A stretch of 64,000 bases of DNA from Alkalicella caledoniensis (GTDB lineage: Bacteria; Bacillota; Proteinivoracia; Proteinivoracales; Proteinivoracaceae). The stretch is from the NCBI RefSeq assembly GCF_014467015.1, contig NZ_CP058559.1, positions 2,108,001 to 2,172,000 on the forward strand. Reading direction: 5' to 3'. Below, piece by piece: positions 58,312 to 64,000 of this stretch (the first letter of the stretch is position 1; every line of letters starts with the position of its first letter). The notes under the pieces were generated by a model that ran no database searches, was not told the origin of the DNA, and saw only the letters and a program-made list of their open reading frames with translations. The position numbers and the translations under genes were made by a program.

Positions 58312-58367
58312 AACAAGCCCAAGCCCTCACACACCAGTGTGAGGGCTTGGGTTTGTTTTATGCTGAT
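58302..58367. terminator. Very long hairpin overlapping the cstA end (T1)
   Basis: Two 31-base arms (58302-58332, 58337-58367) pair with a single mismatch around loop ACCA. The left arm includes the last codons and the stop of cstA. Its core (58313-58348) recurs at 58624-58659. Likely a terminator, perhaps also a 3' stabiliser. Confidence 0.8.
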
Positions 58368-58368
58368 G

Positions 58369-58611
58369 ACAAAGTCATTTTTTGGTGAATGTCGCATATT
58401 AAACGCTGTACAAAATTCTGCGTCGAGACTTAAGGCTTCTATCTAAACTACAGAAGGGGACCGCTCCAATTCACCATCCATGGTTCAGTGGAGCTCTCAG
58501 AACGTCCTGTTCTTCGCCCCTTCTTCCGTTTAGCTACTCAGCTCTTAAGTCTATCTCCTCGAATTAATTGTACTGCTTTTTAATATGCACATCTAGGGTC
58601 AATGACTTTGT
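58369..58611. other. Highly structured element, candidate ncRNA or decayed inverted-repeat element
   Basis: No gene is visible here, but the two halves pair in order as nested stems: 58369-58379 with 58601-58611 (11 bp); 58394-58403 with 58579-58588 (10 bp); 58408-58413 with 58568-58573; 58427-58434 with 58544-58551 (8 bp); 58443-58448 with 58528-58533; 58453-58459 with 58517-58523 (7 bp). At the top are two further hairpins: 58463-58468 with 58489-58494, and 58499-58503 with 58509-58513. Terminator-like copies T1 and T2 flank it. It could be a stable RNA of unknown class, or an old inverted-repeat mobile element; strand unknown. Confidence 0.6.
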
Positions 58612-58623
58612 TTAGGTTTGTAT

Positions 58624-58664
58624 ACAAGCCCAAGGCCTCACACACCAGTGTGAGGGTTTCATTT
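58624..58664. terminator. Second copy of the cstA-type hairpin (T2)
   Basis: 36 bases at 58624-58659 match 58313-58348 at 34 positions. CCTCACAC and GTGTGAGG form the stem around ACCA; the tail GTTTCATTTT is T-rich on the + strand, so T2 could end transcripts of the preceding element. Confidence 0.7.
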
Positions 58665-58930
58665 TGTCTAAATGCTTTTAACCGTGAAATTCTCAAGATA
58701 TCGAAACTATTACTGGTTCTCTACCCTTAAAATCATATAATTATTTTGAGATGCTATCTTTTTAAGACCTGTAGTTACGCCATTAAGTTGAAATGATTTC
58801 TTGTCAGCATTTCAATCTATAACAATAAATTATAAAGAACATAAAAAAATCTGAACAATAAAAGCAGGAATTATTCAAAAAAGTTAGAATACCATATAGT
58901 GAGTGCAAGTTATAACATTCACAAAGGGAA
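58665..58930 (+). other. Leader interval before the glycine riboswitch
   Basis: AT-rich, no open frame of note. One hairpin: TTGAAATG (around 58790) and CATTTCAA (to 58817). The promoter for the glycine reductase operon must lie near its end, for example around TATAGT at about 58896, but no convincing -35 is present. Confidence 0.4.
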
Positions 58931-62897: not shown

Positions 62898-64000
62898 TTG
62901 AGCAAAATTCGTGTGGTACACTATCTAAACCAATTTTTTGGACAGATAGGTGGAGAAGACAAGGCACACATTGCCCCATTGGTCAAAGAAGAGGTTGTGG
63001 GCCCTGGTATGGCTTTAAAAGCTCAGTTAGGGGAAAGTAGCGAAATTGTAGCTACTGTAATTTGCGGAGACTCATACTTCAATGAAAATATAGATGAAGT
63101 ATCAGCTGAAATAGTTGAGATTATAGCTCAGTACAAGCCAGATATTGTAGTCTGTGGACCAGCTTTTAATGCAGGAAGATATGGAGTGGCATGTGGGGCA
63201 GTAGCAAAGGCCGTTTTTGAAAAGCTTGATATACCAGCTGTAAGTGCCATGTATCAGGAAAACCCCGGTGTTGAAATGTACTCGAAGTACTCATATGTTG
63301 TAAAAGCAAGCGATTCTGCTAGGGGGATGGCCCCTGCCATTGCATCTATGGTAAACATAATTAAAAAACTAGTAGACGGTGAAGAACTACAACCTGTGGT
63401 TGATAACTATTATGAGCGTGGTATAAGGAAAAACTATTTTGCCCAAGATAGAGGTTCAAAAAGGGCTGTTGATATGCTTTTAGCTAAACTTAAAGGTGAA
63501 GAGTTCGTCACCGAGTACCCTATGCCAGAGTTTGATAGAGTGGCACCTAATCAACCAATTACAGACTTAAGTAACGCAAAAATAGCACTGGTTACCTCTG
63601 GTGGAATAGTGCCTAAAGGGAACCCAGATAGGATAGAATCATCTAGTGCTTCTAAGTTTGGCAAATATGATATATCAGGTTTTAACAATTTGACAGATGA
63701 AACCCATGAGACTGCTCACGGTGGTTATGACCCAGTATACGCAAATATAGACAGTGACAGGGTATTGCCAGTGGATGTATTGCGTGAACTTGAGGCGCAA
63801 GGAGAAATAGGTCAGTTACATCAATACTTCTATACAACGGTGGGAAATGGTACATCAGTTGCTAACTCAAAAGCATTTGCAAAATCCATAAGTGAAGAAT
63901 TGGTTAGAGATGGAGTTCAAGCTGTTATCTTAACATCCACCTGAGGCACCTGTACTCGTTGCGGTGCAACGATGGTTAAAGAAATAGAAAGAGCTGGGAT
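62898..64000 (+). CDS. grdB: Glycine reductase component B gamma subunit GrdB, selenoprotein (3' end outside window)
   Basis: The selenocysteine subunit of substrate-specific component B. From TTG 62898 (MSKIRVVHYLNQFFGQIGGE, the family start; AAGGAGGGG upstream) the frame is open to a TGA at 63942-63944, codon 349. It continues UGTCTRCGATMVKEIERAG to the window end; in GrdB this U-GTC motif is the redox centre. An earlier GTG at 62880 overlaps the ribosome site. The C-terminal ~80 residues lie outside. Confidence 0.94.
63942..63944 (+). other. In-frame UGA selenocysteine codon of grdB
   Basis: TGA in the context LTST-U-GTCTRCGA, the conserved position of Sec in GrdB. The downstream sequence ends at the window border, so a SECIS cannot be judged fully. 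Confidence 0.9.

Follow-up and report, generated by a model that had tools for sequence, protein, structure and literature searches.

In the genome of Alkalicella caledoniensis, a stretch of 64,000 nucleotides (hereafter the window) contains, between a cstA-like gene and a glycine riboswitch, a region for which a preliminary description had claimed a series of nested stems at 58369-58611, free of genes and with a terminator on either side. The region was read there as a possible new structured RNA, with a decayed mobile element named as the alternative. Which of the two is it, and could an element of one kind carry the other? The existence of many copies of the region, in its own genome and elsewhere, allowed these questions to be addressed by comparison.

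Structure and boundaries of the element

The nested stems are present where they had been placed. For the 261-nt region 58360-58620, the predicted fold has an energy of -90.2 kcal/mol on the plus strand (z = -8.0) and -94.1 kcal/mol on the minus strand (z = -8.2), the shuffled mean being near -55, and on neither strand did any of 200 shuffles fold as well. Both strands form a single rod, with its helices in order and a two-hairpin head. The outermost stem is formed by GACAAAGTCATT (58368-58379, plus strand), kept in nearly all copies, and its partner at 58601-58612. One hairpin of the head (58463-58494) has an AUGGAU loop on the minus strand, as seen in the structure of the aligned copies and in the Rfam alignment; the other is AGAACAGGACGTTCT (58499-58513, minus strand). 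We found no convincing gene inside the rod region, in agreement with the original claim.

Comparison with 65 other copies delimits an element of 273 bp at 58359-58631, to which no strand is assigned; the stems had been located correctly, and the element proper is slightly wider than the extent first given. Its left terminal sequence, here TATGCTGATGACAAA (own-genome consensus CAGACTGATGACAAA), occupies 58359-58373 on the plus strand, and its right terminal sequence, here GGGCTTGTATACAAACC (consensus CAGCTTGTAGACAAACC), 58615-58631 on the minus strand. The right boundary between element and flanking hairpin is ambiguous over about 8 bases, since the element end resembles the hairpin start (ACAAGC).

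Copies of the rod and duplication of its target

The search for further genomic copies which the preliminary description had proposed returned 42 matching pieces from the complete genome of A. caledoniensis itself, corresponding to about 35-40 element copies. Ten of these are short, at about 270 bp, and with the window's own copy set aside the remaining nine are 93-96% identical; several more diverged copies are also found, as well as copies split mid-element by a 1.66-kb insert. At least 40 rod copies with 76-83% identity are present in one genome of another genus of the same family, where the covariance model finds 48-50. There is no match to the rod covariance model in the family's remaining three genomes or in eight further genomes of the class, although one of these eleven (G004) has a separate TwoAYGGAY match. 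The rod core has no match among plasmids, phages and viral contigs.

In nearly all of the first copies inspected by eye, the hairpin of the left flank, terminator-like and different at each locus, recurs directly to the right of the element. Both flanks are available for 65 copies, and in 57 of these a direct repeat abuts the element on each side (16-36 bp, median 24), compared with 13 of 4160 mispaired flank combinations under the same rule, and the duplicated repeats have a mean folding energy of -11.7 kcal/mol against -1.9 for shuffled letters. In the window, the target is the intrinsic terminator of the cstA-like gene (58313-58356, plus strand, 20 pairs), of which a partly mutated repeat is found at about 58623-58666 on the same strand; the two flanking terminators, ACAAGCCCAAGCCCTCACACACCAGTGTGAGGG... 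and ACAAGCCCAAGGCCTCACACACCAGTGTGAGGG..., are direct repeats of one another. Since each copy of the element has a different terminator, yet one that is alike on both sides, the terminators belong to the target and not to the element. The hairpins noted on both sides had thus been seen correctly, but are best read, from these sequence comparisons, as the target-site duplication of a mobile element.

The 273-bp element has no coding capacity, many dispersed copies, fixed ends and a target-site duplication, the features of a miniature inverted-repeat transposable element (MITE). Many copies with target-site duplications are what the preliminary description had named as speaking against a new RNA. 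Its mobile-element alternative fits the dozens of copies lying between duplicated hairpins, though the word “decayed” does not suit them, as many are intact.

A core matching TwoAYGGAY on the minus strand

According to the preliminary description, the rod resembles no RNA family. At the gathering threshold, the whole window yields only glycine riboswitches and one selenocysteine insertion element (SECIS_4; 63945-63982, 66.5 bits), the latter beyond the downstream end of the glycine riboswitch operon. Using an E-value threshold, however, we found that the minus strand at 58415-58549 matches the full length of Rfam family RF01731, TwoAYGGAY (model positions 1-168), at 41.7 bits (E = 1.2e-5 to 1.7e-5), which is 1.3 bits below the gathering score of 43 bits. 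Two sibling copies score above this cut-off (L079, 44.1 bits; L083, 43.4 bits), and distant terminator-duplicating copies reach 51.8-63.8 bits. The rod also has the two adjacent GGA-loop head hairpins on a shared basal stem by which TwoAYGGAY is recognized (minus-strand loops CAUGGAUG and ACAGGACG).

The core that was aligned to look for the covariation proposed at the outset (58422-58562, no strand assigned) comprises 41 pairs in six helices, and across 26 cores from both genera 98.9% of the cells are paired. Pairing falls to 33-60% (at most 60.4%) when the partner strand is slid, a control that favours the structure, since the alignment tested is also the one from which the structure was taken. 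Compensatory, two-sided changes occur in 12 of the 41 pairs across the two genera, and none of 500 shuffles is as high; related sequences can exceed shuffles, and it is the two-sided changes which are the stronger evidence for the core structure. What remains of the proposed new structured RNA is the conserved structure, with changes that preserve pairs between copies and between genera; a new family is not supported for its core, which is best regarded as the known RNA fold TwoAYGGAY, which at least in several bacterial families appears to be carried by a mobile element. In six copies (L066, L068, L072, L073, L013, L022), an alternative head module, GTAGGGGGTGG...CCCCCTAC, takes the place of half of the TwoAYGGAY head, an exchange resembling GTAG-tagged palindromes.

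TwoAYGGAY was first described, from gut samples, gamma-proteobacteria and Clostridiales, as probably an RNA and one that is not cis-regulatory (PMC2864571); a later proposal made it a CsrA-binding RNA (PMC4333381). The passages on TwoAYGGAY in these two papers make no mention of mobility, fixed ends or hairpin duplication, whereas the rod has all three. Could the locus simply be a stand-alone sRNA gene that sequesters CsrA (PMC4333381), its copies being gene duplications and the terminators its own? Two minus-strand hairpins with GGA in the loop (ACAGGACGU, CAUGGAUG), the presence of a CsrA gene in each of the family's five genomes and the compensatory changes in the core are consistent with such a gene. 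We nevertheless consider it improbable: the terminators, as outlined above, are those of the target, no sigma-70-like promoter was found in the region, and the orientation of the element relative to the host terminator is variable (17 versus 9 among the copies where it is callable). A CsrA-type RNA role and mobility can coexist.

Relatives with IS1182-type ends

An end-motif scan identified, on a viral contig, an insertion sequence of 1.5 kb (L303) with the ends CAGACTGTAGACAAAC and CAGACTGTCGACAAAG; it encodes a 444-aa transposase of the IS1182 family (440 bits, cut-off 270), and the hairpin ATGGGTGCTTGAAGCACCCTT is found on each side of it. Four of eight related plasmid copies (L410, L412, L416, L417) likewise combine similar ends with hairpin duplications of 21-30 bp, and a gene-free relative of only 161 bp (L399) has duplicated AGCCCCTATATCTTTAGGGGCTTT. 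From L303 and the four plasmid copies it follows that one IS1182 subgroup duplicates terminator hairpins, and it is the ends of this subgroup, together with its target habit, that the rod shares.

IS1182-type ends in combination with hairpin duplications are not known as a feature of REP mobility. A REP- or RAYT-type palindrome with a Y1 transposase as its mover would be a most unlikely description of the rod, as the matching hairpin duplications flank DDE-encoding elements, even though the head has CGTC- and GTAG-containing palindromes like those in PMC3733652.

We could not identify, in the complete genome of A. caledoniensis, any IS1182 element or transposase enclosed by rod-matching ends. 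Those IS1182 elements which the genome does contain have the ends TCAGACTGTGTGG, GAGACTGTGTCA and GAGGGTGTCGCAAAA; the third of these types was considered as a parent and rejected, its ends (GAGGGTGTCGCAAAA) having no match to those of the rod. The missing autonomous partner counts against recent activity in this genome, not against the IS1182 type: with no element of matching ends at hand, the mobiliser may have been lost, have diverged or be foreign, or it may act in trans.

Insertion sequences nested in the rod

Thirteen rod copies hold an IS1182-family insertion sequence (499-aa transposase) at a single point of a head hairpin, GAACG/TCC, equivalent to the hairpin at 58499-58513 in the window; it is inserted in one orientation in six copies and in the other in seven. 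The same insertion sequence has seven further copies away from the rod. The rod halves cannot be taken for long ends belonging to a 1.9-kb IS1182 element, with the short copies arising through internal deletions, despite the thirteen insertions at one point: that reading is refuted by the two orientations and by the stand-alone copies, with their own ends, at seven rod-free sites, and other rod copies are occupied by a different IS1182 element (L062) or an IS110 element (L065), and the copies inspected in the second genus carry the rod without that insertion sequence. L062, itself a nested insertion, was likewise rejected as the parent. The nested elements are later arrivals.

The 20 copies of the first insertion sequence (L033-L052, e.g. 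L032 882-2381) are 97-100% identical, and the rod head hairpin is its preferred target (13/20), several of the others lying at GGACG/CGTCC-like palindromes. The IS110-family transposase at L065 (598-1881), of the RNA-guided kind, lies inside a larger rod variant with extra hairpin modules.

Proposed mode of insertion and comparison with known elements

The sequence at 58359-58631 is, with high probability, a MITE-like, non-autonomous IS1182-type element of 273 bp which carries TwoAYGGAY and whose insertion duplicates the target terminator. An IS1182-family DDE transposase would recognize its ends (consensus CAGNYTGWWGACAAA) and attack an intrinsic-terminator hairpin at its feet, on both strands. 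DDE chemistry and the model of PMC5678879 suggest that the 3' ends of the transposon would be joined to the extruded stem-loop at its 5' feet, and gap filling and repair would then leave a copy of the whole hairpin on each side. Because the host gene would always retain a working terminator, insertion should be nearly harmless, and the element could spread with little damage. Its interior is an imperfect palindrome, the minus strand of which, as the TwoAYGGAY structure, would be held by selection; the selected role may be that of an RNA (for example, binding the GGA-recognizing CsrA as a decoy), of an RNA required by the element, or of a DNA or RNA structure aiding mobility.

For IS1182, long and variable direct repeats are listed in ISfinder, and parts of the present findings may already be recorded there. 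Similar to the rod, the EFAR repeats of Enterococcus faecalis are modular palindromic miniature elements with stem-loops as targets, but EFAR insertion removes the greater part of the target stem-loop instead of duplicating it. EFAR has been listed among the MITEs (PMC3733652). YPAL (RU-2) of Yersinia is another short palindromic mobile sequence, with duplications of 3-26 bp and targets that span or adjoin dyad symmetry; compared by description, neither a TwoAYGGAY core nor CAG...GACAAA ends are reported for it (PMC2229807). IS1272 and TnSha1 belong, like the rod's relatives, to the IS1182 family and have terminator hairpins and inverted repeats as targets, yet the stem-loop is deleted or replaced without duplication (PMC4923244; PMC5678879), whereas the target hairpin of the rod is duplicated whole. 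Duplication of a whole hairpin is drawn in PMC5678879 just as a hypothetical alternative, pathway b.

Palindrome- or terminator-targeting miniature elements (YPAL, PMC2229807; also EFAR) and terminator targeting by IS1182 (PMC4923244) are known. As far as the literature searched shows, what appears to be new is that a transposon has TwoAYGGAY at its core, and that whole hairpins are strictly duplicated by both the rod element and an insertion sequence. The orphan Rfam family gains a concrete natural context, and an insertion mode which had been hypothetical for the IS1182 family (PMC5678879) is documented; terminator counts and annotations of 3' UTRs and RNA families in such genomes should allow for elements that duplicate hairpins.

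TwoAYGGAY elements in other genomes

With up to six candidates per genome scored, TwoAYGGAY is found in 30 of 399 genomes of the phylum, mostly in several copies each. Four copies in a genome from another family (G129) and one in a genome from a third (G042) lie between duplicated terminator hairpins, such as AGGGCCGTTTTTACGGCCCT; four of these five start with CAGACTGTAGACAAA, whereas the end of L192 is a variant. In both genera first studied, the element is marked by the same end consensus, CAGNYTGWWGACAAA, and G129 has 63 end motifs against one in the reversed control. Flanking direct repeats exceed the 99% null at 10 of the 66 TwoAYGGAY loci examined, and most of the loci outside G129 and G042 show no detectable duplication, so the terminator-duplicating reading may fail for the Rfam family as a whole. 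We therefore raise only tentatively, as something that has somewhat more against it than for it, the idea that TwoAYGGAY in general could be the heart of widespread terminator-duplicating mini-transposons and not a host RNA family, its GGA hairpins serving either as a structural signal for transposition or as an RNA that interacts with the host, such as a CsrA decoy.

Twelve matches to the head-hairpin pattern in genome contigs proved to be mostly chance; one, on a metagenome-assembled contig of Lachnospiraceae (L184), is a true TwoAYGGAY with 133.9 bits, at which no clear terminator duplication was seen. End pairs lying far apart in G129, and the end motifs of G028, G155 and G307, were rejected as autonomous elements, there being no transposase beside the motif at the sites whose ORFs were listed (two each in G028 and G307, one each in G129 and G155). 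In G251 and G228 (L185, L218-L224), TwoAYGGAY copies lie within longer inverted repeats whose ends are different, a setting in which this RNA may have a second mobile context. The end motifs CAGNNTGWWGACAAA of G028 and G155 (L268-L271, L276) directly adjoin terminator hairpins and enclose different interiors, which suggests several miniature families served by one kind of transposase.
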